DNA of 64,000 nucleotides from Alviniconcha marisindica (taxonomy: Eukaryota; Mollusca; Gastropoda; Provannidae), in NCBI GenBank assembly GCA_018857735.1, contig JABMCL010002055.1, positions 1,704,501-1,768,500 of the forward strand, given 5' to 3'. A model generated the notes under the pieces. It saw only the letters and a list, made by a program, of their open reading frames with translations. It ran no database searches and was not told the origin of the DNA. Of this stretch, positions 39,583 to 63,499 are shown piece after piece. Numbering within the stretch: the first letter of the stretch is position 1; every line of letters begins with the position of its first letter. The position numbers and the translations under genes were made by a program.

Positions 39583-40420
39583 CAACAGGACAGATTCAGG
39601 ATGGATGAAGACTCGTCAACCAAATTCATTGGGTCGCTGACCAAGTTTCTTCAGTCACTGTGCAATGGCTATGTGGAGTTTCAGAGGGGAGTGGAACTAG
39701 TAGGACATATTTACCTCAGTATTGATACAGGTGAAAAAGTTGACTATATCCTACATGAAAAAGTGAGCAAGAATGATGAGAACTCGGTTACGTTTGTCAG
39801 CAATAGTTTCCATGCTCAGCCACTTGACAAAGGTAAGGACAAGACAGCAGCAAACAAAGATGCACCTTCCAAGTCTGGTAGTGCTAGCGCCAGAGGTTCC
39901 AGGGGCACATCTAGTGGTGGTGATGATGATGATGATATTATGATTGTGGACAATTCTGGTGGTGCACCAGGGAGCACAAATTCAGGAACCATTCCGTCCA
40001 GAGGTATGAAGCGTGTAGCTTCACCCAGTTCTGACCAAAGACAATCTCAGCGAGCAGTTCAGCATGGTGCAGGGGGATCTTCACACCGGAACCAAGGCAG
40101 CAGCAATCCAATGTCATCACCACCACGAAATCGGCAGCAGTCGGGGGGACCTTCAGCAACAGTGACAAGTCAAGATGCACAGCAAGAGAACATTAATATG
40201 GGTGATATGAAATTGGAACAGATTTCAACAGATGAACTGTTGTCATTAGCATCACAGGTGGGTGCTGGTGAAGGTGCTTCGTCTTCCAATGCATCCAGTA
40301 TGCAAGGCCAACGAGGAGGTCCTGTGCGGGTTGGTCGCAGTTCTTTGGGTGAATCGGCTGGACAGCCTGTATGGATCAAACAAGAAGCACCAGATGACAT
40401 GCATGGAGGCCCTGATACAG
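39583..40420 (+). CDS. Locus A constant exon 1: shared N-terminal region
   Basis: Acceptor GGTTGTTTCCAG; start ATG at 39601; donor ACAG/GTTGGA. Codes 273 residues plus one base. Residues 1-75 are almost identical to locus B and probably form the structured, functionally constrained domain. A Ser/Gly linker follows, then GGDDDDDIMIVD (SUMO-interacting type), MKRVASPSSDQR, QENINMGDMKLEQ with DELLSLASQV, and PVWIKQEAPDD with the psi-K-x-E SUMO site just before the splice. If unspliced, the frame runs 18 more codons and stops. No BTB, zinc finger or membrane segment is visible. Inferred role: shared protein-interaction half of a multi-isoform nuclear factor. Confidence 0.9.
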
Positions 40421-40493
40421 GTTGGACTTTTTCTTTACAGTTACAGGCTGAAAAAATGTTTTTTGATTTTGAATGAACACCAAAATTGTTGCT

Positions 40494-41196
40494 CAGAGCT
40501 GCCAACCACTACTTTCTGTTTATTTTAAGTCGCATGTGTATGGACATCAAATGCGCCAGCAGCTGGCTGTGCATGTGCCTTTTTTGTCTCTGTGGTGTGG
40601 TGCCACAGCCAATCAGCGCTCATGCTTTAAACCAACTGACCAATCATAGCGTTTGGTTCAGTTCCCTGTCTTATGTGTCTGGCAAGACAACTTCTGTTTT
40701 GAATCATTTCAAATCGCCATGCCAAAGCAAAAAGCTGAAAACTAGCTCTTGGGTGATAAATCTTGTCAAAAAAACGCACACTCAACTTTCTGGGATGAAT
40801 ATGTCTACAGAACAGTTTCTGTGCATTTTATGATCAGTGCAGAGCGCCCGGCACGTTAAGTGCAGCGCCTGCTTCTTGGGACTTTTCTGTTGCCCATGGT
40901 GGAACGTATGACGTTGAACAATGCGTCAGCTGGAAGCGTCACATGAACAAAGGAAAAGCAATAGGCAGTACACTGAAGATTTCCCATTTTATGGGTTGTG
41001 AGATGCTGTCTTCTCAGTATTTGGATGTCATTCGAGCAGTGCATATTGCTCCCAGCATCCGAACATACTACACATCTGGTGCATGTTTCTGTGAAAATTG
41101 CAAAGGACGACCATATACACCACACTCAAAATCAAATTACTACACTTAAAATCTGATTTAGCAACACTTAAGTCTAATGAAGGGTTGGCAGCTCTG
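40494..41196 (+). mobile_element. Short inverted-repeat DNA element, family 2, copy 1
   Basis: Begins CAGAGCTGCCAACC and ends GGTTGGCAGCTCTG, a 14-bp inverted repeat with CAG/CTG ends as in hAT-like elements. It is related over its length to 48714-49391. No intact transposase, and I could not find a clean target duplication. It sits in locus A intron 1, only about 75 bp after the donor. Confidence 0.65.
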
Positions 41197-41962
41197 GTTG
41201 GTCTATTTTTACTTTGCTTAACTCACATCTGCCAGGGAACAGCTTGAAAAAGGCATGCTTCAGGTGGATGTTGCCATTGTTGCAAACAAGATTGCTGTTG
41301 GAGTTGAACATTAACACTTTCTGGTAGCATGCACTGTTGGCAATTTGGGCTAGTTTGAACATGCTGTAAAATCTGGAGTAGAGATTTGACATGATGGGAG
41401 TGCCAGACAGCAAAGATAAATTGGACAATTTACACTAAGCTAGAATTTGCAAGAGTTGATCAGGCTGCTGCCAAAATGGACTATGTATCAATCAATTCTG
41501 ATGTAGCAAGAAACATCACAGTGAGCAAGTCATAATATTTTTCAACCATGGCGAGGCTAGTCATGTACATGCTAGAAACAGATTTTCAGTGGTGCTGCTT
41601 TAAAAAAGAGAAAGAAAACAAAAAACAAAAATGGGTGCAGGTGAGTTCAGTTTGACCAGACTGGACATTCGATCGAGAAGGAAAAAAACTGCTATTGATG
41701 ATGCAACCCATAAAGGTTTAACGGCTTATTTGTGCAGTTTGTGTTCATATCTTAAAGTTGTATGCTAGCATGCATCTTGGAACTCTTCCTTCCCTTCACA
41801 TGGGATTTTTGTGACAGTGGTGGTCACTTGTCTGGGGAGAAGTGGGTAAAATGCTTATGGATAAGCACATATTTCAGTAAGTGCTTGAGTATCACGAGTA
41901 TTATATTCTGATTTTTATCGGAATATTTCTTTAACAATATTATGAAAATTCAAATGTTCCAG

Positions 41963-42211
41963 GTTGGTCCCACAGTCGAGATGGCCAGAGTGACTCAAGT
42001 AATTCCGGTTCAAATCTCTATCCTGTTATGATGCATCCAAATCCTGCCTTTACCTCAAACCCAATCTTCCCTGGTTTCCCGTCCATGTCTGGTCCCACTG
42101 CTACATCAACATCTCAACATCACAGCCTTCCTCAATCCCTCCCTGGAACATCTGCTGGCAACCCCTACACCAACCCCATGCCTGGCATGTCTGGAGGCAT
42201 TGACCCTGCAG
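41963..42211 (+). CDS. Locus A constant exon 2 (Pro/Ser/Asn-rich linker)
   Basis: A 249-nt exon, phase 1 at both ends. Acceptor AATGTTCCAG; donor CCTGCAG/GTGGGT. Encodes GWSHSRDGQSD, SNSGSNLYPVMM, NPIFPGFPSMSG, a Ser/Thr/His/Gln stretch (TSTSQHHSLPQS) absent from locus B, and NPYTNPMPGMSGG, ending IDPAG. Disordered linker by composition. The next last exon in phase is 7.6 kb downstream. Readthrough of the donor would add about 43 residues before a stop. Confidence 0.88.
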
Positions 42212-45200
42212 GTGGGTGTCTGACTTTTACAAGTTTATTTTTAATTTATGTCTCGGGTGAAGGAAACTCAGGGATGTGTCAATTTGAAATTGGGATTGAT
42301 ATAAACCATAGTTGTAAAGAAATTAAAAGCAGCAATAACTGACTAAAATTAACCAGTATCCAGTAAAATTAACCTAAATCCTTATTTTGTCATAGACTCA
42401 GTGCAGCAGCTACTGCATTTATAGTAGCTTAAAAACTCTGATGTGACCTGGGGGCTTGGTCTGTGTATATGACCAGCTGTGACAATAATAAAAAGGAGGG
42501 TAGGTCTTAGAGTGTTCGGAGCCTGTAATGTTGAGCCTTGTCCTTTGGACAGCCACCAGATCTGTGATGCTGTTTGAAAACCATGTCAGCTGTACTAAAC
42601 TGCTGGTAAATGAAGGAACAGATAGTGTTACAATGGAAAACTATTGTACAGTTGTGATCAGGAGTGACAGAAAGAGCAAAAGGGAACACTGGTGTGTCAT
42701 TGCTTAAAATTTTGTAGGGTAAGTGGGATGAAAACTCTTGAAACTTCACTTACCTCCAAGGTGAATAGCTGCTAACATGCTACATGAAGGAGATTTGATT
42801 GTTCAGAGTGACGGGCCGATTTAGTCATTGTCCATCTCAAGGATAGGTAAGAATAAAACTAGCTGAGCCAGTGATGTTGAATCAGTCTTGTGCATAGATT
42901 TAAAGTATTCTGACAGTTTAAAGATGCTGCATTACAGAATGAAGTAAAGAGTTGTTTGACATCCCTGAGTTTCTTTCACTTGGTTAAATAGTGATAGGGA
43001 CACACCAGCAAGCATCCCATTTGTCATTGGCTTGGGGTTATTCTAGACGCACAAACCAGGGGTGAAAATGCCAACTGCATGCTTTGCTCTCTTCCTTTCT
43101 TCTTTCCACTTCGAGGCTTCGATGGACCAGTCAACACGGCCACCAACGAGGACTGAAGAGAGAGGGGTGGGGGTAAAAAGATGACAGAAATGGAATAAAT
43201 ACATTGCCAGATTATTTTGAAGTTTAAAAATGCAAATAAATCTGAAGTTTTGGTGTAATTAAAAAAAGTATGAGTGTTGGGATGCCTGGACATCCAGAGT
43301 AACGTGGAACAAATAAATATGAAAGTGCGCTTGGTGGTAATATTAGTTCATCCTTATACTAAAATAATTTGTGAGCCTTGACCTATTTCAAGGAATAATT
43401 GAAGGTTGTACTTCTTCGTATGTTCTCATATCAAATAAAGGCTTTATTCTTAAGAAGACCAGAATTGCACCATTACTGGTATGAATTTGTCAGTGTTATT
43501 TTGGGTGTTTGATACGTGAAATACAAAGACTTTTCCTTGGGGGGGGGGGGGGGTTATTGAGAAAGGACAAAAGAGTTTCCCAATGTATGCTGTTTGAAAA
43601 ACTGGCTGACCTTCAATGTTATCAAGTAAGCTTTCCCAGAATTTATGAGGTGATTAACTTTGTTGAACTTTACTCATTCATATTAGTTTCAGTAATTTTG
43701 ATCTGACTGCAAGGTCATGCTTTTTCAAGGTCACACCTATGTTTGAAATGTGAAACTGATAATGAATTTTTGAATTGTGATGGCAAGGATGTTATGTGAA
43801 GGAAAAAATTATCCTTTTTCTATGATGAAAAGAACATAAAATACTTTGATGCCTGCAAAAAAGAATATAGCTATATTTGGGTTTTAAAGCAGACGAAAAG
43901 GAAAACAACACAATTATGTATAAAATTTAACAGCATGGGGGGGGGGGGGGGGGGGGGTTCTCCGTAGTATTTTGAAGGCATCAAAGGAACATGAAGGTAA
44001 GTCTTCGACAAGGTAAGGGACAGCTGTATTTCTTCGCTTTGACCACCCCACCCACCTTTTTTGTTTGTTGTTGCTTGTAATTGAAGGACATTCTCTAAAC
44101 TAGAAATAAAAGTGCCAATGCAGGAATATAATGACCAAGTCGGGGAGGGGGGAGGGATGCATGATCATGTACCTCCACACTTTGTGTATTAGTACATGGA
44201 CTGAAGCTTGCCTGAACAGTGCAATTTCATATTTTTTGTTTTGGCCATCGTGTATATAACCCTGATAAACTGTAATGGTTGACTGGACGTAAAACATCAG
44301 ATTACTACTACTTTCCATGTATGAAGTATCTCCACAAGCAGAGGTGTGGTGATTTCTGGGTGAATAATACAAGCTTATTTGCATCAAGTCCTTGTAAAGG
44401 GGTGACAGCACGCAGCTGGTGCAGGCAACATTTTCAGTCATTTCTCCCACATTGAAGTGGTTGTTTTTTTAAACACCTTTTTGGGTATCTGATGTAAGCT
44501 TGAGAATATGATGTCCGTCTTGCTTGTTCGCAATTTTTGCGTGTTACCCCATTGGGGTTTGTGACTGAGACTGGTTAAGATATCAAATGGGATAATTGAG
44601 TAATCTGAGAATAAAGCTAAAAATTATTTTGGATTTGATTTTGCAGTGGTTTGTTCCTGGCACATTTTCCCTGTGGAAGATTAGTTTACAGAGTGTCCTC
44701 AGAATTCGTGTCCTTGGCATTTTCACTCCAGTTTAGTGTCCTGATGAAATGTGATGGAAGTTGCCAACAAGATTTGGAGAGTTTACAAGGAAGTCCCATA
44801 TAGTAACTTGATGGAAAGTTGATCAGTAAAATAGGGAATGGCTCATGCTGTTCCGAGTATGTGAACTGTGTCCCAAAACATTTCTTGACTTTGCTGTAGC
44901 CAGTTGTTTTTGGCCTACAGCTGGTTAAGACTCACAAGTGCCTTCCTGGAAAAAGTAGGCTGCTTATGAAGGAGGTACCGAAAATAGATTTTCACCTGTG
45001 AATTTTGAGGATTTATAGGGGTTAGAATATCTTGTGTACCTTTTACTCATTTAAGACATGCGTGTCTGTAATGTTATAGTTCTTGCTTTGTGAAATGTAT
45101 TTTCCATAAAGCATATCCCAAGCCAATGACAGACATTTCAGGAGGCAGGATGTTTGATTTGTTTATTTACAGTGAAACTTGTCCTGAAATGCTACTCCTA

Positions 45201-48200
45201 CCATCAGTTTGAATGCTATATGCTATCTGAATTGAAAATGGTAACTAGCAGTACACCCGGGAATAGTAATACAATACAGTGGTTCTGTTAAACATCAGTT
45301 TTCCATCTGTGACGGACAGAAAATGGACTGAAAAGAGCATTTTGGAAGTAAGACACCTGTGGAAGAGAATTTTTTTGGATCTGATTGTACTTCCTGCGCC
45401 ACAACCAGAGAGACTTTATTGTTGCAGTACTGCCCTCTGACCCATGGATTGTGAGAAGCTGTGTGCAGGTTTCATCAACATTGATACCACCAGTTTGCAA
45501 TAGTTTGGAGATATTCTTTATTCCAAGATAAAAACATTGACTTGATCTCTGTATGAAAAAGCAGTTGGCTATTTCAACCCACTGTCAGTCACCCACTCTG
45601 CTGTGTGGAAGAGTGGCAAAAGAAATTCAACATAGGGCAATGGATGATCTTGGCACATCACAGTGACCAGATGCAAGTACTGGCAGAATGGGGGGAGGGG
45701 GCACAGGAGAAAGGATGTATTGGAATACAAAAGGCTAATATATGTAAACAGTAATGTTTGAAGAAAGAACTCCAATACATACAGGAATTGCTGACAGATT
45801 ATAGTATGTACAGGAAGAAAGTTTGACAGTGGGAATGGCTGTGTAAATAGCATAACAGTACAAATGCAAGTAGCACTTCAGAGAGGCAAGTCAAAAGAAA
45901 AGTTGTGTTCTCGCTGTTTTTCTTAAGCATCGCAAGACATCATTGGGGGGGGGGGGGGGGGTATAGAGAAAGGACAAAAGGGTTTCCCAATGTATGCTGT
46001 TTGAAAAAGTAAAGGGTTATTTCTAGAATATGATTCTGGTTCCAGCTCATTGCGCATTTTTATTCTAGGTCTGATCATAAATTTGGAAAATATGCAAATG
46101 CCTACTGCACCATGGTCTGGATAGTGAAGTGAGACGATATGTATTGGGCCTTTCAGTAGTATGTGGGTACATATGGAGGGCTGAACTCAACATTTCCAAA
46201 CAAATCAGTCTAGTTCTGGACTGCAGAATCAGGAGGGGGGAAAAAACAAAAAAAAGCCACTCTTGTGGGTCTGTTAACTAGGTTTCAACTTTTGGTTTCA
46301 AAAGCTGGCAGAACATTTTACAGACCAGATTCAGCACCTCGCGTGTACCCATGCTTATAGCTAAGCTATAGAATATACATTGACCTAGGGTTACAGATGA
46401 GGCTGGAATTTGTATAAGTCTTTATCAACATCATAATTTTGATGTTTTTCTCCCATTCTGTAAAAATTGTAAAAGCATTTTGTTATTGCCATATATGGTC
46501 TGAAGCGAGTCTTCTGAATCTCTTTACATGGTCTGTGAGTAACTTTTATTTAAATAAGTAACCCTGTTGTATATTTGCAAAATATCCATGCATTCTGGGA
46601 GCAACTTTCATTTCCCCTTGTAAAATCGATTACTGTTGCTTATTTATGCATTGGGACTTAAACATGGGGCTCAGTCTCACTTTACAAATTTTCAGGACAA
46701 GTTTCACCCAATCAGTGTGATTTTTTGGAGATGCGCATCTTACTCTTAAGGTGCTGTCAGCACCAGCTGTGCAGGAAGTTGAATTTGGTCTTGATTTGCA
46801 GTACTCTTTAAACTGTCAAATTCTTGAGATGTGAATACATGAATACTGTAACATCTCTGTGGTGACAGCACAGAGAAGTTTCTGCTTAGCATGACTATTC
46901 AACTTCCACTGCGTTCTTGGTTGGCTGGTGACAGCATCTTGTTTCAGTTGCTTTTTCTTGGTGTCAAACTAAATTGATTTGATTTTGTATTGCTTCTGAA
47001 CCATAAATGGTTTTGTTATGCACTCAACGTGATAGTTCTTTCCTACACTCTGTCTTTCCTTCAACTTGCAATGTGCCGCGTTAGCAAGAAAATCGGTCGT
47101 CATGAGTTGTGCTGAACACTTGCGATTGATCAATGCTGCCTTGAAACCAAAGGAAATTCAAATCTGGAGATGTGGTGAAATCTCTGTTGGAAACTTAATT
47201 TTGCTCAGTAATCTACCTTATGGAGCATTAAACTTTCAACTGAATGTTCTGCTGTGTTTACTGCTTTCAACGGTGCTGTAATCAACATGTGTTCCTTCAG
47301 CCTGCCAAAACATGCATGTGAATAGTGAGCAAAGATAACCGGCGTATGAATTGGTCGTGTATCATACTTTTTTTTTTTTTTAATGAAGTTCTTGAAGTCA
47401 GGGAGACTTTTCATGAGTGATATGTTGAAAAGCTTGTAATCAGGCTGGTGGCAAGCTTGATTATTTTAGTTACAGTTACGCTGTTGCTTTGTTCCCTCAC
47501 TGTCTCTAGTGAACATAAGCTTTGTTCTGCTTAAGGTTTTACTTTTATGTATTGGATCTGTTAATTTGTGTTGTTACAGGAAAGTTGTAATTTGTGCTGT
47601 GCTATCTGAAAGGTAGCTCTGTTGTACTGCATTTGAATTTAATTCTCTGCATTGGGGTGACTTGTACACATACATTATGCACCTGGATATGCACTGTGGC
47701 ATACACCCTCTGACGATGTTCTTCAGATCACCAGAACCAAAGTTGAAGACCTCAAATTCACCTGTTTCTTTCACTGTATGTGAAATTTACTGTTTAAAAT
47801 CCGTGGACAGGAGTGAAAATACCCCATAAAAATATGTCTGGCGGGTTGTGATGACCAGCGATATTTCACCATGGCAAAACGATGTTGACAGTGCAGCGCA
47901 AAACATTGTTGAACATGTGTTAAAGCTGCTGTGGAACAAGCATTGAGGTCATGTGCAGTGTCTTTCCGAATCGGTGACTAAAATGTCTTCTCCATGTTTG
48001 TTACACTTCATGTAATCACTGTGTGTATGTATTAGCATACTTGCACATTTTCTTGATCATTTATCGCCTTGGGTTTGTTCTTTCTGGTATTAAGCTTGAT
48101 TGGCTGGAATACTGAAGACACATCTTGGATGTTTACTTCCCAGACTTAATGAAGTAGGTGCTGAAAGTCGTCATTGTTGTAAAGAAAAGGATAGATGAGG

Positions 48201-48713
48201 TTTTGTTTCCTTTTTAATAGATCACGTGGCTGAGGAGTGATAAGCGTGAAGATTGGAGTGATAATACTGAAGATACAGCTTGGATGTTTACTTCCCAGAC
48301 TTGATGAAGTGGGTGCTGAAAGTCGTCATTGTCATAAAGAAAAGGATAGATGAGGTTTTGTTTCCTTTTTAATGGATCACATGGCCTAGGAGTGACTCGG
48401 GTCATTGAGGGGATGTGGTGCTGATGTGCACTTTTGAAATAATGCAGTGATACATGCTGTTGGTACTAAAGTCTTGGCGTTATTGTGATGTTGGTGTGAC
48501 TGCTGGTTAGTGGATGTGCTGACTACAGACGTAGAAGATGTTTACCAGAAATAATACAGAAAATTATTCTGACTTGAAAATGGCATCTGTGGCCTGTATG
48601 GTGGCATATGCATTCATGAGTGTGGATGCTGAACTCCAACACATTCAAACTCCAAGATCTGATATGGATTTGCGAGTAGTGTTGGGTGGTTATACATAAC
48701 TAGAAACATATTT
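42212..48713. other. Long locus A intron with poly-G repeats and a 140-bp tandem duplication
   Basis: Poly-G runs lie at about 43539-43552, 43938-43957 and 45946-45961. The first and last share about 60 bp of right flank (GAGAAAGGACAAAAG and TTTCCCAATGTATGCTG), indicating a small repeat family. A tandem duplication of about 145 bp lies at 48108-48395 (both units contain TTGGATGTTTACTTCCCAGA). No coding exon found. Confidence 0.55.
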
Positions 48714-49391
48714 CAGTGATGTCAAAATGCTTTCCACCTATTTGAGTTCTGCATTTGTTTTAACTTTTGTGTGTGGTATTAGTTGTGCCACAGCCAACCG
48801 ACGTTCCTGTTTTAACCAGCTGACCAGTCATAGTGTTCATTTAATTCCCGCTCATATGCATCACTTCGTGGTGAGACGATTTCATTTTCAATCATTTCAA
48901 ATCACCATGCCGATGCAAAAAGCTAGAAGCGAGCTCCCCGGTGATAAATCTCATCAAAACACTGTGCACCAGACTTTCTGGGAAAGATTATATATATATT
49001 CTGTGCATTGTATGGCCAGTGCAGAGCACCCAGCATGTGAAGTGCAGTGCCTGCTTCTTGGGACTTTTCTGTAGCCCATGGCGGAATGACATGTTAACTC
49101 AAAGCATGGCATCAACAAAGAAAAGTGATAGTGATAGTATGCTGAAGATTTCCCATTTTTACCAGCGTTGTGGGACACTACGAGACGATTTTATCGGAGA
49201 CAATTTTTCGTAAATTTCTTTGTAGTGCTCAACATCGCTATCTCCACAGCCGATCATGCTGGACATCTGTGCATGTTTCCGCTAAACTGAATTGCGAAGG
49301 AGAACCATGATATATACTACACCCAAAATCTAATCTACATGTAAAATCTGATTTTGCTACACTTAAGTCTAGTGGAGGGTTGGCAGCTCTG
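48714..49391 (+). mobile_element. Short inverted-repeat DNA element, family 2, copy 2
   Basis: Aligns with 40494-41196 (shared blocks GTGCCACAGCCAA, CATTTCAAATC, CTGCTTCTTGGGACTTTTCTG, GCTGAAGATTTCCCATTTT). Right end GGTTGGCAGCTCTG is intact; the left end has decayed to CAGTGATGTCAAA. Non-autonomous. Confidence 0.6.
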
Positions 49392-49787: not shown

Positions 49788-50083
49788 GTGTGGTGGAGTT
49801 TGCAGAAGTAGAGACATGTATGTCCTATTTTGATCTGGTATCCCAACAATCATTGCAAGATTTGAGGAAGAAAGATGACAAAGTGCGTTTGATTGGTGAG
49901 CATACGGTGGGACGTATTCCAGCCACTGAGAGAAAAGGAAGGCCATATCGCAAGTGTCGTGTGTGTTTGAAGAGGGGAATACGTAGAGAAACGCAGAAAC
50001 ATTGTACCTCCTGCCCCAGCAAACCTGCACTCTGCGTACCGCACTGCTTTGATGATTTTCACTCCAAACTGGTCTATTGGTGA
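49788..50083 (+). CDS. Locus A alternative last exon a: piggyBac-type cysteine-rich domain
   Basis: Acceptor TTTCCTTGTTTCAG, stop TGA; 454-residue isoform. After an acidic and amphipathic linker, KGRPYRKCRVC leads into C-x2-C-x12-C-x2-C-x6-C-x3-C-x4-H with RRETQKHC, CPSKPALC and CFDDFHSK. This is a closer match to active piggyBac transposases than the locus B exon (293-4), including the SKPALC phrase. No transposase core is present anywhere near. Candidate poly(A) signals AATAAA lie at 50673 and 50977. The domain probably binds DNA; in this gene the target is unknown. Confidence 0.82.
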
Positions 50084-51057: not shown

Positions 51058-51305
51058 ATGCCGCAGCTCTGGCAGTGGATGGGGATGAAGAATTGCAGCA
51101 AGTGTGCGAGGCTGTCATGCGCATCCGCTCCAGGGAACTCACATTACGCAAAGCTGCTGAGCTGTATGGTATTCCCCGTAGCACACTAGGTGATCGTGTA
51201 CGGGGACGAGTCAAACTTTTTGCTAAGCGAGTCAAGCGGCAACGTTCCAGACAGGGGCCACAGCATGAAGACCACCAGTTAATTGTAGATCAGAGTAGTG
51301 ATTGA
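51058..51305 (+). CDS. Locus A alternative last exon b: pipsqueak-type helix-turn-helix
   Basis: Acceptor TTATATGTGTCAG, stop TGA; 438-residue isoform. The sequence EELQQVCEAVMRIRS, then LTLRKAAELYGIPRSTL and GDRVRGRV is a textbook HTH_psq: a first helix, the recognition turn AELYGIPRSTL and the basic exit. A basic stretch (AKRVKRQRSR) and a short acidic end follow. HTH_psq domains occur in insect Pipsqueak/BTB factors and in pogo/Tigger transposases. This is the tail most directly comparable with insect BTB-psq proteins. Expected to bind DNA. Confidence 0.88.
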
Positions 51306-51859: not shown

Positions 51860-52095
51860 CTTCACAAGTACCCCGAAACATACCCCTGTACAAGGGGTTA
51901 CCAAGATCATGCTTCAGCTCCCATTATAGGGTGACAATGCCTTTTGCCGGTAGGTACCATAACATGCCCACCAGCTCGAATGCTGTGGTGGTGGAACTGC
52001 ACAAACTGAGACACCGAGAAGCACAGAGGCGATACAGGGCTAAGAAAAAAAGAGAAATGGAGGGTTTGCAAACTTCTCAGCCAAGCAATCAATAA
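51860..52095 (+). CDS. Locus A alternative last exon c: bZIP-basic-region-like tail
   Basis: Acceptor CTTTTCTGTTCCAAATTTCAG, stop TAA; 434-residue isoform. After about 50 unremarkable residues comes ELHKLRHREAQRRYRAKKKREME. The core EAQRRYRAKKK resembles the DNA-contacting basic region of ATF4-type bZIP factors and also the last third of the basic motif in exons i-n (ARRYRAKKK). No heptad leucines follow, and the protein ends 11 residues later. It may be a shortened relative of the repeated tail, or an independent basic region without a zipper. Confidence 0.72.
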
Positions 52096-54051: not shown

Positions 54052-54269
54052 GGTACACCCTGTCATTGGAGAGTAGCAGATTCACAAACCCATATGGTGT
54101 TCCTGAAAGCAGTGATCTTAAAGAAAGGATGCGGCAGTACAAGCGCCGCTCTCGCCAAAGAATGAGAGAGAACCCTTTGCTTCTTCAGCGGTACAGAGAA
54201 AGGAAACGCATAGAAAATAAGAACTACTACGAAAAGTGTAAACTGCTTAGCCGTTTAAGAAGGTGGTGA
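54052..54269 (+). CDS. Locus A alternative last exon d: basic repeated tail, subtype 1
   Basis: Acceptor CATTTCTTTCCAG, stop TGA; 428-residue isoform. Linker GYTLSLESS..NPYGVPESSD, then the tail motif MRQYKRRSRQRMRENP, LLLQRYRERKR and NYYEKCKLL. The spacing is R-rich helix, E-N-P turn, then a second basic helix with Y-R-E-R. Linker and length are nearly the same as exon e, so these two are recent tandem duplicates. No metal ligands. Confidence 0.8.
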
Positions 54270-54667
54270 AGGCAAGCTGTGACATTCATGAAGTGTGTGT
54301 AGTGCTGGTATTTGTCCTATTGTTTTTGTGATCTTTCTCATCCTGAGGCAACTTCACTGTTAACAGGATGTTAAAATCCTTTTGCAAATTGTACGGTCTG
54401 ATTAGGGATGACGTGAAAGACGGTGCAAGTGGTTCTCTGCTAGTGTTACAGTCGTACACGTTAATTTCTTCCAGAATAAAAACAAGTGATGTTACTGGTA
54501 AAATGCAGAACCATTTGAGAGAAAATTAGTTCCATACATCAATTAGTTCCATACATGATTGAATTGATAAATTGAAGACCAGCCTTTTTTTCCCTTTTTT
54601 TTTTGATGCGCCCTTTTCTAATTCTAAAACCACAATGAAAAATAAGCCTGGTCCCCTTTTTTTCCAG

Positions 54668-54885
54668 GATACACGCTTGCATTGGACAGTCAAGGAATCA
54701 GAAACCTGTATGGTGTTCCAGAAAGCTGTGATAAGAGAGAAAAGACGCGCCAATATAAACGTCGTTATCGCCAACGAGTTAAAGAAAACCCAGAATGGTA
54801 TCAACTGTACAGAGAAAGACAGCGCATGCATAACAAAAGATATAATGAAAAACTGAAAGTATTGCAGCAGTTTAAAAGAAGATAA
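54668..54885 (+). CDS. Locus A alternative last exon e: basic repeated tail, subtype 1
   Basis: Acceptor CCTTTTTTTCCAG, stop TAA; 428 residues, same exon length as d (218 nt). Linker GYTLALDSQ..NLYGVPESCD; motif TRQYKRRYRQRVKENP, WYQLYRERQR, NKRYNEKLKVL. Differences from d are mostly conservative, pointing to purifying selection after duplication. Confidence 0.82.
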
Positions 54886-55074
54886 TGTGAGCTGTTCCGA
54901 ATGAGTATCGTGTTTGGGTGTTGGGGGTCTGGAAATATAAATTTTAGATCTACTTTGTGTATGCGCAGACAATTTTAGGAGAGAAACCCCCTGTGCCTTC
55001 ATCAGTAGAGTATAGAAAGAAAGAAAACACAATATGGCAAGAACTGGTATATATATAATATATATATATATATA

Positions 55075-55090
55075 TATTTATTTGAAGAAG
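55075..55090. repeat. TA-rich microsatellite area (55050-55080) before exon f
   Basis: Imperfect TATATA run in the exon e-f interval. Confidence 0.6.
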
Positions 55091-55354
55091 GGGAAGCTTG
55101 AATTTCGGGTCTTCTCAACTGATACTTTACATCTACAAGTAGAAGGCAGCATTATTTCTGTTAGTCCTGTACTGGTTTTTAAGAGCTTTTGATGTCAGCA
55201 GGAGGCCTGGCATGGGCACTTGGGTGTGTGAAAATGGGAGGGGAAAAAACTTCCCAAAAGTAAAAGTTGGTACTTGGAGAAGTACTTTTATATATGTGAG
55301 GACAAACGGTGGAAAACCTGTCAAATTAAAGTTTTGGTCCCGGTTTATTTCCAG

Positions 55355-55596
55355 CTGCCTACCAGGAGTACCTGACACTGAGCAGTCTTGGAGTGAGAGA
55401 CTCGTTCAGCTCTCGGACTTGTACCCAAGAAACCATTGCTCGGAAAGAAAGGAATCGACTATACAAACGTCAGTCTCGACAACGACTGAGAGAAAACCCG
55501 TTGCTTCTTCAGCAATACAGAGAAAGAGAACGCTTGCATTGCAGAAGATACAATGCAAAGAAACGGCTTATGCATCTTGTGTTAGGAAAGAAATAG
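55355..55596 (+). CDS. Locus A alternative last exon f: basic repeated tail, subtype 1
   Basis: Acceptor CGGTTTATTTCCAG, stop TAG; 436 residues. Linker AAYQEYLTLSSLGVRDSFSS; motif RNRLYKRQSRQRLRENP, LLLQQYRERER, RRYNAKKRLM. Shares LLLQ-x-YRER with exon d. The linker keeps an echo of d/e (YLTLSS). Only 155 bp separate its stop from exon g, with no AATAAA. Confidence 0.8.
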
Positions 55597-55751
55597 TTGA
55601 GGGAGAGTAACAGTATTGGAGAGAGAAGAAAATGTCTAGATGGACAGCTTGTCTGTCATTTGATTGTGAGAGTGGATAATTTGTTTGGGTGGTTGACTGT
55701 TTTGTCTTTTTGGATGAGAGGATTTAAAACTGCATCGTCTTTTCTTTCCAG

Positions 55752-55981
55752 TGTCCTACCGGGCAATGAGCAGTGATGGATTGAGACGCTCAAACAGCCT
55801 TGTTCAGGAGAGAAACAAGCGAAATCAGACAGAATATATGCGCCAATACATGCGACATTATCGACAGAGAATTAAGCAAAACCCTATTCGCCACCAGCAG
55901 TACAGAGAACGGCAGCGCATGCATGAGAGAAAAAGCAAAGAAAAGAAGCAGTTGTCCAAAAGTGAACTCTTGTACTTCTAG
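55752..55981 (+). CDS. Locus A alternative last exon g: basic repeated tail, subtype 1
   Basis: Acceptor CTTTTCTTTCCAG, stop TAG; 432 residues. Linker VSYRAMSSDGLRRSNS; motif YMRQYMRHYRQRIKQNP, RHQQYRERQRMHERK. Residues TEYMR before the motif recur in exon l. Its stop lies only 93 bp before exon h's first base. Confidence 0.8.
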
Positions 55982-56074
55982 AGAATGAGTGTAATAGTTA
56001 TAATCTTATACTGCTGTGCATAGTAACAGAAAAGATGACATGCTTAAGTTAGTGCCCTTTTGTTTTTATTCCAG

Positions 56075-56313
56075 TGTCCTGCCACAACACAGTGGATGAT
56101 TCTGGACAGAGGTGTGCAGCTGGCAGTCATGTTGATAAGAGAACTGAAAAAACAAGATACATGCAGAGATATATGAGAGAATATCGCCAGAGAGTGAGGG
56201 AAAACCCAGCTCGACACCAAGTGTACAGAGAGCGGCAACGCAAGTACATGAAAACCTATCACGAGAAACGAAAGCTCATGGGAAGGAATGCATTCTTTTG
56301 TAGTGATGACTGA
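56075..56313 (+). CDS. Locus A alternative last exon h: basic repeated tail, subtype 1
   Basis: Acceptor CCCTTTTGTTTTTATTCCAG, stop TGA; 435 residues. Begins VSC (compare VSY in g); motif RYMQRYMREYRQRVRENP, RHQVYRERQRKYMK, YHEKRKLM. Candidate poly(A) signals AATAAA lie downstream at 56588 and 56623, the first after the d-h cluster. Confidence 0.8.
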
Positions 56314-56879
56314 ATAGTTGGCTGTGTCAATGGTGCAGAGGTTCAGACACAAGCAACATCAGTAGTCAATGTCATTTTCCGTTCATTTTCCTACACTGGT
56401 AGTGAGACAGTCCTAAAAAAAAAAAGGAGCACTGAAAGGGTTACTGACTAAATAAGAGCTGGCTTCAGAGTCACAGAGAAAATTGGCATATACAGAACAA
56501 AACGACAACCAGTCCTTGAAAAAATGAACAACAAAACCAAACCCTCCACTCAGAAGACGAGAAATGAGAATGAAATGGACAAAGTGCAATAAAAAATGAT
56601 TTGCGAATTCTCTAGACTGCTGAATAAATGAGCTCTTGAGTTTCATGTCAAAATCGTACAAAAGATTTTTGTTACAGTTTTATTTGAACTGTATTTATTC
56701 TTTAATATATGAATTATCTGTTCAAAGATCACAGATACCAAAACAGTTCAGATTTTTGTTTTGTTGCATGTTTTACCTTCATGTGACCTTTGAGGTTCAG
56801 CATTAAAACCTGTTACTTGCTTTGCTCTTGAAGTATTGTATTTGTCAGTACCTTTGGCAAAGGTCTGTGTGAGCTGAAA
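56314..56879. other. 3' UTR / spacer after exon h
   Basis: Holds AATAAA at 56588-56593 and 56623-56628, which could serve the whole d-h cluster. Otherwise unremarkable. Confidence 0.45.
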
Positions 56880-57715
56880 CAGTCCTGTTTACCCCTACGG
56901 TTTCGCTGTAATTCCCATGGATTCAGACCTCAAATTCCGCTGTTACGCTGGTTAGGTCAAAAATTACGGTCACTGTCCAATTTTCCCTTTCACACATTTT
57001 AAGCTGGAGTAAAACCACAGGCACAGGATCGAAAGTGTCAAAGGGCCAAAACCAAGTCATGACAGGAAATTACTTCCCTTGCTCATTGTTAAAACTCTGC
57101 TTTGCCGTCATGTTTGAAGTGTGCTTTGGGAAGATGAGTAAAAGATGTGTTGAAGATTCAGGATTGACTACCCCTAAGAAAATTAAGGCGATCCAACTTT
57201 ATCACCCAGAGTACCATGAGAGGTGGTCATGTTTATTGCGTTCGCGAAAAGGCAATTCATTCGTTCAACATCGACTTCACTTGTGCACATAGTGGTGGAA
57301 ACGATTGCAAGAGGCACGTGGAGTCAATTCACCACAAAGATGAATCTTTTGAAGAAATCCCAGCCATCTTGTTTAAAGTTTCGGGAAGCAAAGTGAGGTG
57401 AAGGCCAGCAGGACATCATTAGAGCTGAAGCCATGATGTGCGACTTATTCATCAAGACTTGTAATCATCACAATCCATGGATCTGTTGATGTTTTTAATA
57501 ATAGTTAAACAAAATGCTATTGCACTTAAACTTGAGGCTATTGTGCCTTCAGTTGGTCTGAGTAAAAATTAACTGTGAATACAACTGTCTAAAACATTGT
57601 GTGAGATATGAATATAAGAGTGAAAAATGGAGTGTGTATTACTGACAGGCACCTTGGATTACTGACAACTTCTGTCCAAAGTACTGACAAGTGAAAAGAG
57701 GGGTAAACAGGTCTG
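56880..57715 (+). mobile_element. Short inverted-repeat DNA element, copy 2, with broken BED-like finger ORF
   Basis: Full-length copy (836 bp). Left end CAGTCCTGTTTACCCCT, right end AGGGGTAAACAGGTCTG, flanked by a perfect CTGAAA duplication (56874-56879 and 57716-57721). The ORF MSKRCVEDSGLTTPKK...ERWSCLLRSRKGNSF shifts frame near 57285 into SGGNDCKRHVESIHHK. It separates the d-h exon cluster from the i-n cluster. Confidence 0.75.
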
Positions 57716-58193
57716 CTGAAAGAATGAATATGTGGAATTTTTTCAATGTCTTGCATTTTATTATTATGGTCTGGCTTGCATGTGTGAAATAGTTTGATTT
57801 TTATGTTGGTTACAAGTAGGCAGTACACACATTCATTATTATATAGACTTGCTGGGTAATCTTTCTCATGAAAGACATCTCCATGTTGATAACTGAAACA
57901 TACACACATGTAAAGCTCAGGTCATGGAAACAGAAAGTGTTACACAAGTACTAAAAAAATAGAATTCGAAAACAGTTCATGTTTTGTCTGCGTAATTGTT
58001 GGACCTTGAATTATATCATCCAAAGTTGGCAGACCTATGTGAGTGATAGCTTGCCTTTCAAAATTTGAGATATGAAATTGTGCTGCATATAACATGTCTT
58101 TTCTTTCACAAAACCAAAACCATGTTCACACAAAATCGCACAAGGACAGCTTTTAAATCAGCACTTGTTTGAATAAAAATGTAAATCTTGGGG

Positions 58194-58225
<32 letters not shown>

Positions 58226-58756
58226 GTAAAACCTTCAGCCAATGCAAGACCTAGTGCTGACCTTGGGTGCAGCAGTAATGGTGCTTCTGTTGTGGATAAA
58301 TGAATATCAAGTGGTGAAGCAGAATGCTGTGAATGTGTTTCAGACACAATCTGTTGGTGTGTAATAAAGTGTGCGCAGTAAACAAACTAAACTTATGGCA
58401 GACATGGAGCGGTTACTTCTGCATTTCTTTTTTAAAACTATATTCCATTGTCTTATCTGGATGCTTGATCATTTTTATATTGCGTATTGTCATTTAATGT
58501 GAGAAATCGTGCTATTCTCTGCTTCTGAGCTGCACACCAGTGAATGCGCCCCTGGCTGTAGCCTTGCACAGTGCTTTTTGACTAGCTTTACACACTGCAG
58601 TGGTGTACTTGCAGAGCTGTTTGGTTGTTACATAGTGGCTGGTGCCACATAAAATACCCATCTTCTTAGTGCATGTTTTCTGTGTACTCCATTCATCAGA
58701 TTACAGTTTTAGTCAAAGGCACATACGGGTATGTTTTGCATGCTTTTCTTTCCCAG
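57716..58756. other. Spacer with a TA microsatellite
   Basis: (TA)n lies at about 58200-58226 and an AATAAAGTG poly(A)-like site at about 58362. No gene seen. Confidence 0.4.
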
Positions 58757-58842
58757 TAATGCGAGGAAGGAATGGATACAAAATTAGCACAGAAAGAAAA
58801 ACCTGGTGTGAATGCAAGACTGAATGCCGACTTTTTGTGTGA
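58757..58842 (+). CDS. Possible short last exon, 28 residues, cysteine-containing
   Basis: A very good acceptor (TGCTTTTCTTTCCCAG) opens a phase-1 frame VMRGRNGYKIST then TWCECKTECRLFV and TGA. It lacks the array's basic motif; three cysteines (C-x-C-x3-C) are too few for a known finger. It is either a degenerate array member or a chance acceptor. Confidence 0.25.
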
Positions 58843-59079
58843 ATTTCAAAGTTGGTGATAAACTGGGGTTGGATTGGTTTTTGCAAATGACTATTTGCAC
58901 CACTGTTTATCAGCTGGACATTTTTGACAGATGTTGTGAGTGGTGTGTTAGTAAAAATGGAAGTGTTGCACTTTTTTTTTGCAGTGTTTCTGTTTTATTG
59001 GATCTTTGTAAATCGTTGCTGAAACATGGGACTTTGGAGAGGAGCGACAGTTAAAACAGTCTTTCTGTTTTCCTTGCAG

Positions 59080-59303
59080 TATTCAAGAAGATGGTACCTT
59101 GTATGTCTTCCAGTGGACTAGGGAACACTAGATCAAGGCATCTACAGATCACGCCCAAAGAAAGACATCGCCTGTATCGTGAACGCCTAAAGCAAGACCC
59201 TGTCCGTTACAGGCAATACCTTGCTCGGCAACTAATGTACACAAAACGTTATCAAGCTCGGAAAAAAATGGAGAACTTGGCAAAATCAAGTGGGGGTAAT
59301 TGA
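59080..59303 (+). CDS. Locus A alternative last exon i: basic repeated tail, subtype 2
   Basis: Acceptor CTGTTTTCCTTGCAG, stop TGA; 430 residues. Linker VFKKMVPCMSSSGLG; motif RHRLYRERLKQDP, VRYRQYLARQ, YTKRYQARKKMENL. First member with the D-P turn and the Y-L-x-K/R-Q second helix that define subtype 2. Confidence 0.82.
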
Positions 59304-59642
59304 TTTGTGAATAGTTAATGACTAGTGATGGTGCGATTATGCTGACTGTACAAGGGGCATATTGAAAGTAGCATAGTGAAGTTACCACATAAATGATCTG
59401 AATATCAGACATGGTCAAAATTATTTCTGTTTGGTTTGTGGACTTAGTGGTGCAGTAGGGATGATCAGTGTCTTTAAGTTCTGCTTGTTTGTAAACATTC
59501 ACACAAATACAAATCAAGTGGCAAGAAGTGAAACCGAGAAGGGAAAAAAAAGACCTTGATCAAGTTTGTTTTGCTAGAGAGCACATTGGTTGACTTTTGG
59601 TGGCACCTTTGGTAAGACATCCCTTTTCTTTCTTTCTTGCAG

Positions 59643-59893
59643 ACATTCACACATCTGCAACAACAATGCTGGGACTCTCTCGCTGGGCTTGTGTTCAAAC
59701 AAAAATGTCGGTCTCGAGAGATGTAGGGGGAGTGCAAAAGGCCATCAGAGATGAAACAAAAGCAGAAGACCTTAGCGCACGAGACAGAATGCGTCGATTC
59801 CGCAAACGCCTGAAAGAAGATCCAATACTGCATAAGAGATACCTTGAAAAACAGGCTGCTTATGCAAGGCGCTATCGAGCCAAGAAAAAGTAA
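59643..59893 (+). CDS. Locus A alternative last exon j: basic repeated tail, subtype 2
   Basis: Acceptor CTTTCTTTCTTGCAG, stop TAA; 439 residues, with the longest linker of the subtype (DIHTSATTMLGLSRW...DETKAEDLSARD). Motif RMRRFRKRLKEDP, LHKRYLEKQAAYARRYRAKKK, ending right at the last lysine. The final RRYRAKKK equals the core of exon c. Confidence 0.82.
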
Positions 59894-60092
59894 ACCTGTT
59901 GGATAGGTTGGCAAATGTTTTACCTAGTCAGATGGATACTTCCTCGACAGTGCATACAGAGTGAATTATTTTCACTACCCCTTAATGTATGGGACCTTTT
60001 GAATCAGTGGAGTGTAAACTGAGCAGATTGCTGTAATCAGTTTTCAAGTGCAACTAGTTACCTGGCATTCAGTGTGATTCTGTCTCTTTCAG

Positions 60093-60298
60093 CTTGGGCA
60101 CTGGTTGGTCAAGGAGTCGTACCCTATGAGCCGTCAACTTCTCCATCTGGTATATCGAAAAACACACAACGCTCTCGGCTTTACCGCCAAAGACTGAAAC
60201 AGGACCCTGCACGTTATAGGAAGTACCTTGAGAAACAACTCTCCCACGTGAAGCGCTACAAAGCCAGGAAAAGAATCAACTTGCCAAAGCTGTTTTAG
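60093..60298 (+). CDS. Locus A alternative last exon k: basic repeated tail, subtype 2
   Basis: Acceptor TTCTGTCTCTTTCAG, stop TAG; 424 residues. Linker AWALVGQGVVPYEPSTS; motif RSRLYRQRLKQDP, ARYRKYLEKQLSHVKRYKARKR. Closest to exon i in the first helix. Confidence 0.82.
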
Positions 60299-60612
60299 CT
60301 CGCCAGTATTGTATGTGACTCTACAAATAGAACATGAGGCAAAGATTAAAATGGGGTTCACCTGCTGAAGGTGTTCATTGTTTTAGTGCTGTTAAGTGCC
60401 GTGACAGCTTTAAGAAGCCTTCTACAACACTGGGGGCAAAGCCGGAATGAAGTGGCTTGGGAATTTTGGGAAAGTGTCAAAGACTAAGACAACAGGTTGT
60501 TACACAGGTTGTTCTGATCTCATCCTGCCAACTTTGCAAGTATTTGCACATCATTTGCTAGAGCTGCTGACTGCCAGAAATGATCCAAGTGTCTTCCCTA
60601 TGTTTCTTTCAG

Positions 60613-60827
60613 CTTTCTCCGTTACCGCAGTTCGTGGCTGGAGACACAGGACTCTCTCACGTTCCAAGTCCAGTGTGACTGGTCATACGGAATACATGCG
60701 ACGCTGGCGACAACGAATTAAAGAAGATCCCACCATGTACAGACAATACCTGGAAAAACAATCAGAGAGTGGCAGGCGTCATCGGGCTAAGAAAAAAAAT
60801 GCATTAGGTGGCAGTTCCACTTTTTAG
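60613..60827 (+). CDS. Locus A alternative last exon l: basic repeated tail, subtype 2
   Basis: Acceptor CCTATGTTTCTTTCAG, stop TAG; 427 residues. Linker AFSVTAVRGWRHRTLS; motif TEYMRRWRQRIKEDP, TMYRQYLEKQSESGRRHRAKKK. Tryptophan replaces the usual tyrosine in helix 1. Confidence 0.82.
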
Positions 60828-61049
60828 TTGGGTAAATCTCGAGACAAACAATACTGACAGTGTTTCGGAAGAGAGGTTGGTGAAATCTGGCTGTTTATAA
60901 GGCCCATATGCATGATGAGCTAATAAAGGTGTGATAGCCCCTAATCCCGATTTGCTGAAGAGCCCGTAGGTCTGGCTGTCCTACGAGCACAAGTCATCAA
61001 AAGGCTCCAAAATAGCTGTTCATTTGTAGATTGGGAAAATCCCTTGTTT

Positions 61050-61245
61050 TACCAACAATGCAAAGGGTGTGTCGTCGCAAACTGATTGGGCAGTGCATGA
61101 CAACAGCCATGTCAGTCCACAGTTCACTTCAGCGTAGCGGACATCAGTCACCCCAGATGACCCCATCCCATCAGAGAAAGGGTGTGTCATCGCAAACTGA
61201 TTGGGCAGTGCATGACAACAGCCTTGTCAGTTCATAGTTCACTTG
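61050..61245 (+). repeat. Tandem duplication of about 125 bp
   Basis: Two units starting AAAGGGTGTGTC(G/A)TCGCAAA and containing TGGGCAGTGCATGACAACAG. Confidence 0.8.
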
Positions 61246-61484
61246 AGCGGAGATTTTTCTGACTCTTCGCTGGCCGTTTTGATTGTGTCTTGATGTGTAA
61301 AACCAAAATTTCTTGAATAATGTGTGGTCTCCAGTGGCATGTGGGATGGCATTGGTCCGTATACATTTTCTCTCAGGTAGTAGGCTCTACAGCAGCATCA
61401 GAGCCACCACTGAAACTGATACGCGGAAATGGTAGACTGGTGACAGTAGCAGTGTGTTGCCTATTTTTCTGACCCAGGCTACTT

Positions 61485-61665
61485 AAACCTAGAAAAATGA
61501 GTGTAACTTCAGAAGCCCAGAGAGTCCTGTTTGCACTCCCCGGCTGCTAAAACGCAGAAAAATGAGTAACTTCAGAAGCCCGGATGGTCCTGTTTGCACT
61601 CCCAGGCTGCTAAAACCTTGAAAAATGAGTGTAACTTGAAATGCCTGAATGGTCTTGTTTGCGAT
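61485..61665 (+). repeat. Three tandem units of about 65 bp
   Basis: Each unit contains AAAAATGAGT, AACTTCAGAAGCCC (or a variant) and TCCTGTTTGCACTCCC (or a variant). It lies in the spacer between exons l and m. Confidence 0.8.
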
Positions 61666-62043
61666 CCACACATGCCGCTTCACAGTCATTGCCGTTTAGA
61701 AGGTAAACGCGATTAAAAGAGTCAATCAGCTCCTTGGTATGGGTTCAATTTAGCCTTCCATAGTGTGTGCTGACTACTTAGTTACTGGTTAGATGACAAT
61801 CTCCCACACTGAATTCCTGCAGAGCAAAGGTTTGGTTAGGTTCTGTGAATATAATAGTCCTGATATCTAAAAGAGGAAAATATTTGGTTCAGTAGTTGCA
61901 TTTGTCTGATCATGTTTAAATGAGAAATCACCCATTTGCGTGCTCGAGTTCATGCGTTTGCTTTGAGATTACTGTGGCTCGCGTAAAAGCTCATAACTGT
62001 GTGAATTAAGACATTTCTGATGTCTGCATTTTGTCTCTTGCAG

Positions 62044-62273
62044 CATCCTGCATGGCTCACACAAAACACAGCGGGGCTGGATCGAGAACGAGCCTCGAAA
62101 CTGGTGTCTGCAGGAGCACTGGCAACTCCCGGCGTTATCGCCAACGCATAAAACAAGACCCCGTACAGTATCAGAGATACCGCGAAAAGCAACGCCTCTA
62201 TCAGTTGCGGCATAAAGCTAAGAGGCGAAAGCAAATTGAGCAGTTGACAAATAGATTCAATGTAGGGAATTAA
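62044..62273 (+). CDS. Locus A alternative last exon m: basic repeated tail, intermediate subtype
   Basis: Acceptor CATTTTGTCTCTTGCAG, stop TAA; 432 residues. Linker ASCMAHTKHSGAGSRTS; motif SRRYRQRIKQDP, VQYQRYREKQRLYQLRHKAKRRK. Combines the D-P turn of subtype 2 with the Y-R-E second helix of subtype 1. Confidence 0.82.
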
Positions 62274-62429
62274 TTCCAGCCCTTGGCTGCGTTTACATGG
62301 CTACGCTATGTTTGTAACTTTCCCAAGAAAATCGGCCTTTTTAAATCGGAAATAAATACTTTGAATGACTGTCACTGTCACTGCTGCTAATAACATACCT
62401 GACCAGATTTCTTTCTGTTGGTCTTGCAG

Positions 62430-62662
62430 TGCTTCGCGACGACCCCCCAATTTCCCAGGCACTGCTGACGGTTTTACAGCAGAACGTGGTGTCACCCCTC
62501 TCCAGTTCAGCCAGAAAGACTCTGGAAATGCGTCGTTATCGTGAACGTCTGAAAAGAGACCCTGTGCGGTATAGGAGATACCTGGATAAACAGAACGAAT
62601 ATGCCCGGCGTCGCCAGGAGAAGAGAATGAAGAATTTACCTCCTGCCAGTCTCAATCTTTGA
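62430..62662 (+). CDS. Locus A alternative last exon n: basic repeated tail, subtype 2
   Basis: Acceptor GTTGGTCTTGCAG, stop TGA; 433 residues. Linker VLRDDPPISQALLTVLQQ (a possible amphipathic helix); motif EMRRYRERLKRDP, VRYRRYLDKQNEYARRRQEKR. An ATTAAA lies downstream near 62769. Confidence 0.82.
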
Positions 62663-63221
62663 TGTCCTAGACTTAGTTTGGCTGTTCCCCAAATTTTTCA
62701 GCCTCGTAAACTTACGGACTGCCACATGAAACAAACATTTGCTTGTGATTCAGTTTTAGCATTCCATAATTAAAACAAAATCGCACAAAAGGCTCTAGTA
62801 CAGTACTAGCTTTCAATGGTTATTGGTCTGTCGCTTACTGTAAAATTGAATTTGGTGTAGAAAGTACCTCATATGACCTGGCCAGGCTATGGTAAAGGTT
62901 CCAGGGTCCTGTGTTTGTTACTTTAAAGCAGACGGCATAATTACAGTTGTAATTTGATTTTTTAACGTCATTGTTCTCTTATGAGCTTTTGAGATTTACT
63001 CCAAAGAATTTGGTTCATTTGCTGCAAGTATGACAGGTATTTGTTGTCGGTTTTCCAGCAGCATCTGCTGAAAAACATCGGCACGGCTGTTGAGGACCAC
63101 CACACACATGACAGGTCGCTGCTTGAGATGAGATGGGAACAGAAAGCATTGGTCATACATTAGTCATTTGTCCTTGCCTAATATTTTTTATTTTTAAAAA
63201 GCAATAACTGGCTTGTTTCAG

Positions 63222-63499
63222 CTGGCTTGTTTGGTCAGTTCAGAGTGGCTCTGTCTGCTACTAGTGAAATGCAAGCAGGCACTGATGACTTTGAATAGAG
63301 TCACACTTCTGTTTATAATGAAGGAAGAGAGAGGCGAAGAAAAAGCAGGAAAACGCATGTGAAGATGGAGCGTGAAAGAGTTCGGCGTTACAGAGATCAT
63401 GTGAAACAAAAACCTGTGGGACTACTAACATACATAGAGAGTGCAACCGACAAGCGCAAAAAAGACACGATAAATAGAAAGAAAGTAAAGCAAATATGA
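63222..63499 (+). pseudogene. Locus A exon o: broken copy of the basic tail
   Basis: Acceptor GGCTTGTTTCAG opens the correct phase (AGLFGQFRVALSA...DDFE), but an in-frame TAG at 63296-63298 stops it after about 24 residues. In the same frame beyond the stop the motif returns: ERERVRRYRDHVKQKP, then TYIESATDKRKKD and KKVKQI before TGA at 63497-63499. The second helix has lost the tyrosine/glutamine pattern. So this is a dying copy, unless the short product is used. AATAAA sites follow at 63594 and 63789. Confidence 0.65.

Follow-up and report, generated by a model that had tools for sequence, protein, structure and literature searches.

A gastropod locus resembling lola and mod(mdg4) in layout, with a non-BTB N-terminus and 14 predicted alternative last exons

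The closest described counterparts of the locus reported here, which lies in a 64,000-nucleotide stretch of the Alviniconcha marisindica genome (assembly GCA_018857735.1, contig JABMCL010002055.1, positions 1,704,501 to 1,768,500 of the forward strand; the whole stretch is hereafter called the window), are the insect genes lola and mod(mdg4). Passages on lola describe about 20 unique C-terminal exons, mostly with zinc fingers, each of which can be joined to the common N-terminal exons (PMC1947980), and a BTB domain of the TTK type, an arthropod-specific type (PMC11426971). The corresponding passages on mod(mdg4) describe a common 5′ part and ~30 variable 3′ parts, mostly FLYWCH, which are brought together by trans-splicing and whose variable domains have been multiplied by tandem duplication (PMC4667647, PMC11426971). 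Passages of a further source report that HTH-Psq, FLYWCH, CENPB and other transposon-derived factors have expanded in Aplysia, Biomphalaria and other molluscs (PMC10027918). The window contains what is very probably a single gene in which a common N-terminus is joined to one of 14 alternative, predicted DNA-binding tails.

Like lola, this locus has common exons followed by many frame-compatible last exons (here 14 of 14, by sequence). Lola differs in having a BTB N-terminus, where the window's gene has none, and in carrying C2H2/C2HC fingers in most of its variable exons, whereas those of the window mostly encode a basic two-helix module and none of the 14 has a C2H2 match in Pfam. The features shared with mod(mdg4) are a common 5′ part, many variable 3′ parts and tandem-duplicated variable domains. 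In mod(mdg4), however, these go together with BTB, FLYWCH tails, trans-splicing and exons on both strands; here there is no BTB, no FLYWCH match in any of the 14 last exons (Pfam) and a single coding strand. The likeness to the transposon-derived mollusc factors is that two of the last exons, a and b, bring in domains of that kind; the passages of PMC10027918 hold no alternative-last-exon plan with a shared N-terminus, and its main text contains neither "alternative splicing" nor "piggybac". An initial annotation of the locus had proposed a lola/mod(mdg4)-style layout that is convergent with the insect loci. The layout is borne out by homologous gastropod isoforms, which share the constant part and diverge past the same phase-1 junction, and convergence gains support from the fact that the N-terminus shared here differs from the BTB of the two insect genes. 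The comparison supports a gene that would work like lola and mod(mdg4) without being a member of either, a gastropod counterpart independent of BTB.

Two constant exons are followed by a cassette of last exons (tail lengths in amino acids, aa):
39583..40420, plus strand: constant exon 1; follows an acceptor, is coding from the ATG at 39601 and has its donor GT at 40421
41963..42211, plus strand: constant exon 2; phase-1 end with a left-over G, donor gtgggt
49788..50083, plus strand: last exon a, 98 aa; zf-Tnp_2 (piggyBac-type zinc finger)
51058..51305, plus strand: last exon b, 82 aa; HTH_psq
51860..52095, plus strand: last exon c, 78 aa; short basic stretch, weak bZIP_1 likeness below cut-off
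54052..54269, plus strand: last exon d, 72 aa; basic module
54668..54885, plus strand: last exon e, 72 aa; basic module
55355..55596, plus strand: last exon f, 80 aa; basic module
55752..55981, plus strand: last exon g, 76 aa; basic module
56075..56313, plus strand: last exon h, 79 aa; basic module
59080..59303, plus strand: last exon i, 74 aa; basic module
59643..59893, plus strand: last exon j, 83 aa; basic module
60093..60298, plus strand: last exon k, 68 aa; basic module, the copy modelled
60613..60827, plus strand: last exon l, 71 aa; basic module
62044..62273, plus strand: last exon m, 76 aa; basic module
62430..62662, plus strand: last exon n, 77 aa; basic module
63299..63499, plus strand: shorter 15th copy of the module; its best acceptor, 63324, is in phase 1 and weak (score -1.0)

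The constant exons together encode 356 residues plus one spare base, G, and in tblastn all 179 homologs examined match constant exon 1. All 14 annotated acceptors are AG, and every one of the 14 last exons is open in phase 1 up to its own stop, encoding tails of 68-98 aa that lie on the same strand as, and downstream of, the constant exons. The annotated plan of two constant exons and 14 phase-1 last exons with their own acceptors and stops therefore held on checking in 14 of 14 cases. Its further statement that each last exon has a length of 2 modulo 3 is true, but it follows automatically from phase 1 plus a stop and is no separate fact. The annotated span, 39583..63499, begins at the first base after the exon 1 acceptor, with the start codon itself at 39601, and its end holds the 15th module copy; a 15th last exon could be present there, since the acceptor of exon 2 also scores low (-2.5). 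Joining the left-over G of exon 2 to two bases from any last exon would keep the frame whichever exon is chosen, as can be read directly from the exons, and the tail would presumably be set by which of the competing acceptors exon 2 is spliced to.

Chance agreement in phase was rejected on the basis of acceptor ranking, a strand scan and the junction residue in relatives. For the ranking, every AG in the open stretch upstream of a domain was scored in each frame with a hand-written generic weight set. The top-scoring acceptor was the annotated phase-1 site in 13 of the 14 last exons, and for exon f the annotated site ranked second. The binomial chance of this phase agreement is ~6e-6 at 1/3 per phase, though the true figure is weaker because the trials are not independent, d-n being duplicates with inherited phase. 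When both strands were scanned for strong phase-1 acceptors (score at least 6, open for at least 55 aa), the plus strand gave 11 candidates, 7 of them among the 14 annotated exons (lysine plus arginine, K+R, 19-29%) and 4 elsewhere (K+R 4-14%); the other 7 annotated exons score below 6. The minus strand yielded 2 candidates, neither with a Pfam match above cut-off, and opposite-strand last exons were rejected on this ground. Trans-splicing of separate constant and variable pre-mRNAs, for which passages on mod(mdg4) offer an insect precedent (PMC4667647), would be in keeping with the 7.6-20 kb that separate exon 2 from the last exons. We consider it very unlikely at this locus, as 14 of 14 exons lie downstream on one strand, where cis-splicing suffices, and the opposite-strand candidates are the two without a Pfam match.

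Within the constant part we identified a conserved N-terminal domain and a conserved linker motif:
39601..39822, plus strand: conserved N-terminal domain, 74 aa; predicted helix 3-24 and three strands, no Pfam family
40375..40386, plus strand: IKQE SUMO-type motif in the linker, residues 259-262

Residues 1-90 are 63-100% identical to their counterparts in 42 aligned homologs, and 34 positions are invariant among the 43 aligned sequences. The N-terminus had been described in the initial annotation as non-BTB, and this agrees with our searches: no BTB or other Pfam family was found for residues 1-90 at E up to 10, or for the 356-aa constant part at E up to 1, and a BTB N-terminus was rejected. 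A search by sequence for solved relatives of the N-terminus gave one match at E 0.38, which was treated as chance; fold matches of the N-terminal model were weak and mixed (cystatins, PAS/LOV and bacteriocins among them) and were not used. Beyond residue 74 the constant part is more variable, with one striking motif in the linker. This I/V-K-Q/E-E motif, which we take to be of the SUMO consensus type, is found in 100 of the 100 homologs examined (100 of the 193 proteins fetched), and its K and E are invariant alignment columns. The 74-residue domain may serve as the common interaction part, doing the job of BTB in lola and mod(mdg4), and the linker motif is predicted to be sumoylated and to recruit repressive or chromatin partners.

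The tails are of several types. Exon a scores 26.7 bits for zf-Tnp_2 (PF13842), above the cut-off of 24, and exon b scores 37.7 bits for HTH_psq (PF05225), above the cut-off of 20.4; exon c reaches 18.9 bits for bZIP_1 (PF00170), under the cut-off of 27.6. Exons d-n share the pattern R..R.R....P.....Y, with five invariant positions, and are split by identity into two adjacent blocks, d-h and i-n. AlphaFold2 modelling on the 11 window copies predicts helices 22-34 and 38-62 around a conserved D/N-P, with block means of the predicted local distance difference test (pLDDT) of 90-96 in residues 21-60. A bZIP reading of the d-n module was not adopted and is kept as a lead, as solely exon c and the relative P0004 score, both below cut-offs. 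In P0004 (Littorina saxatilis isoform X9), residues 372-410 reach 21.2 bits for bZIP_2 against a cut-off of 22.3, and some basic tails may be related to, or mimics of, bZIP basic regions.

Relatives of the locus were collected in three protein searches, which gave 249, 286 and 35 matches (120 of the 249, 120 of the 286 and all 35 were listed). Among the matches listed, every row with a species name comes from what we take to be a gastropod (14 species), and for the constant part Littorina saxatilis and Babylonia areolata come closest among the species named, so that the window is likely from a caenogastropod. One match, P0001, is 99% identical over 61% of the query. The third search, with the N-terminus of a 921-aa protein, returned 35 of 59 candidates at E up to 10, and its 34 species-named matches are all gastropods, short proteins being outside its reach. 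Isoform numbers among the relatives reach X37 (Physella LOC131934882), X31 (Babylonia LOC143293577) and X19 (Aplysia LOC101845285), and the 15 listed isoforms of Babylonia LOC143299761 have 15 distinct tails. Babylonia LOC143299684 and LOC143299761, Aplysia LOC101845285, Physella LOC131934882, Biomphalaria LOC106079054 and Pomacea LOC112563529 resemble the window's gene in their homologous constant part, phase-1 junction and many tails; they differ in that C2H2 tails are frequent among the listed relatives and absent from the 14 last exons here.

We examined the junction in ten genes, grouped by name, contig and shared prefix, that account for 93 of the 193 proteins; single isoforms, rows lacking a species, ungrouped genes and Pomacea P0062, P0055, P0056 and P0181 were left aside. 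Within each of the ten genes the tails are all distinct and have a common start point, apart from residues shared by chance. In 93 of 93 isoforms the tail opens with A, D, E, G or V, against a background of 24.7% (0.247) in tails, with the ten genes as the independent count because isoforms of one gene share the G. This restriction is the one expected from a shared phase-1 G, and the splice rule of the window is therefore that of the gastropod family.

Uninterrupted contigs point in the same direction. Contigs of 1303 and 1342 bases encode P0016 (382 aa) and P0052 (399 aa), respectively, and both proteins run through constant parts 1 and 2 into a basic module without a break, as does P0018 (GHVL01003487, a transcriptome-style name). 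Because the same pieces span at least 10 kb in the window, the P0016 and P0052 contigs are best explained as spliced complementary DNA. At E 1e-3, 12 of the 14 last exons have a counterpart among 120 homologs. Over 98 aa, exon a shares 71% identity with a Babylonia tail (LOC143299684 X5) that sits on the same constant part, and the best matches of d-n among the 120 homologs are Babylonia and Nucella tails.

The relatives carry several tail types. Of 100 homologs surveyed with Pfam (E up to 0.01), 35 have zf-C2H2, 2 a homeodomain, 2 FLYWCH, 2 zf-Tnp_2 and 1 HTH_psq. In Arion, P0065 and P0114-P0116 combine the constant part with C2H2-type tails. Two Babylonia proteins, P0023 and P0037, join the same constant part to a homeodomain; P0037 is one isoform among many, and the homeodomain therefore serves as an alternative last part. 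By eye, the Aplysia tail P0101 has a stretch that resembles d-n, with no Pfam match.

Several observations weigh against the single-gene plan as set out above, and they concern the joins, the supporting annotation and models, the 3′ ends of the last exons and the function of d-n. The joins between exon 2 and the last exons at this locus are predicted from genomic sequence, which would leave room for a different arrangement, in which the 14 last exons would close separate small genes, each with a promoter and first exon of its own, and the constant exons would belong to another gene. This arrangement is hardly credible given that phase 1 is common to all 14 and to exon 2, that similar modules are fused to the same constant part in relatives and that transcript-like contigs of relatives cross the joins. 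The "isoform X" records on which much of the comparison draws are, we assume, automatic predictions, and exons b and c have no counterpart among the 120 homologs at E 1e-3. The N-terminal model, a 22-residue helix followed by three strands, is of moderate confidence (pLDDT 68), and both candidate last exons of a second gene in the window, described below, have acceptors that score below 2, under the scan threshold. Dscam-type exon choice uses shared intronic selector elements; no common intronic element was found upstream of the acceptors beyond random expectation, and a choice of that type was rejected.

As to the 3′ ends, a canonical polyadenylation (poly(A)) signal (AATAAA or ATTAAA) occurs before the next acceptor in 9 of the 14 last exons and is missing there in five (b, f, g, i and j). 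Transcripts that use these five exons would likely be polyadenylated further downstream, with later exons inside their 3′ untranslated region. Since the five have no signal of their own, tail choice is likely made at the acceptor, and some poly(A) sites would be shared. A variant of the single-gene plan, in which many d-n copies are unused or decaying and few tails are made, could draw on these five exons and on the shorter, weak-acceptor copy at the end of the cassette. We judge it unlikely, because the 11 module cores have kept their protein sequence in the face of saturated synonymous change: among 55 pairs the median proportion of synonymous differences (pS) is 0.85, which is saturated, the median proportion of nonsynonymous differences (pN) is 0.39, and pN is below pS in 54 of 55, a pattern that points to selection acting on the d-n protein sequence. 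AG acceptors in all 14 exons and the 15 different tails of Babylonia LOC143299761 argue in the same sense.

With regard to function, the initial annotation was right that nearly all last exons carry a basic or zinc/helix-turn-helix module, but for d-n the DNA-binding label is a prediction from their charge and from the neighbouring tail types. None of the 11 modules has a Pfam match above cut-off, their profile matches no PDB sequence and Foldseek finds no PDB match for the module. These results speak for another role, in which the basic helical hairpin of d-n would contact RNA, histones or proteins, or would act as a nuclear localisation tail. We think this role rather unlikely, though worth keeping in view: at a single splice position the module and recognised DNA-binding domains replace one another, both here and in relatives, and the sister tail P0004 resembles a bZIP basic region, weakly and below cut-off.

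In the single-gene plan, the choice of last exon would thus supply the protein with a transposase zinc finger (a), a psq helix-turn-helix (b) or a basic two-helix hairpin (d-n), each with a predicted function in DNA binding. Tandem duplication produced the d-n exons, which form two blocks (d-h and i-n). Homology shows this plan in the gastropod relatives too and, within the limits of the window, in a second, head-to-head gene, suggesting a gastropod family of such loci with two members within this window. On a larger scale, we lean, with some reserve, towards the view that a family of transcription factors arose separately in gastropods, with no tie to the arthropod BTB loci, and pairs a new interaction domain with interchangeable last exons, in which the cassette grows by tandem duplication and by capture of transposase domains and the d-n hairpin is a new DNA-binding class.

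Among the matches listed in open-licence papers, we found no description of a gastropod family with this constant N-terminus, and seven locus numbers used as terms gave 0 papers. If the predicted splicing is true, isoform-coded transcription factors have at least two origins, one in insects and one in gastropods, built on unrelated N-terminal domains, and a direct comparison of why such loci evolve would become possible. It would also provide regulators, not found named in the literature searched, for gastropod neurobiology and evolution (Aplysia, Biomphalaria, Littorina), and would make last exons landing sites for transposase DNA-binding domains.

The second gene, a paralog on the minus strand, comprises the following parts within the window:
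15763..16582, minus strand: paralog constant exon 1; ATG at 16582, donor after 15763
12249..12455, minus strand: paralog constant exon 2; same phase-1 end
6161..6672, minus strand: candidate last exon of the paralog, encoding C2H2 zinc fingers; in phase 1, with a weak acceptor on the generic weights
4..293, minus strand: candidate last exon of the paralog, encoding zf-Tnp_2; in phase 1, with a weak acceptor on the generic weights

The paralog, which the initial annotation of the locus leaves unmentioned, is divergent (head-to-head) from the plus-strand gene, with start codons 23 kb apart, and its constant part is 66% identical to that of the plus-strand gene. Exon a and the zf-Tnp_2 tail of the paralog are 40% identical over 68 aa; the zf-Tnp_2 tail is therefore either older than the duplication or was captured twice. 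More last exons of the paralog may lie to the left of the window. A ~1 kb inverted repeat (3380-4351 and 13922-14871, 78% identical) is situated within the paralog.

Other repeats are scattered through the window. Inverted copies at 1397-2142 and 56880-57598, near both cassettes, are 87% identical and contain an open frame (TTPKKIKA...YHERWSCLL); this is probably a mobile element. Another repeat is present both in intron 1 (40597-41196) and in the long intron before exon a (48782-49391), at 71% identity. Between the two genes, at 27286-29371 on the minus strand, broken open frames resemble a reverse transcriptase of the long interspersed nuclear element (LINE) type and include a YADD motif, which we take to be a mark of such enzymes.

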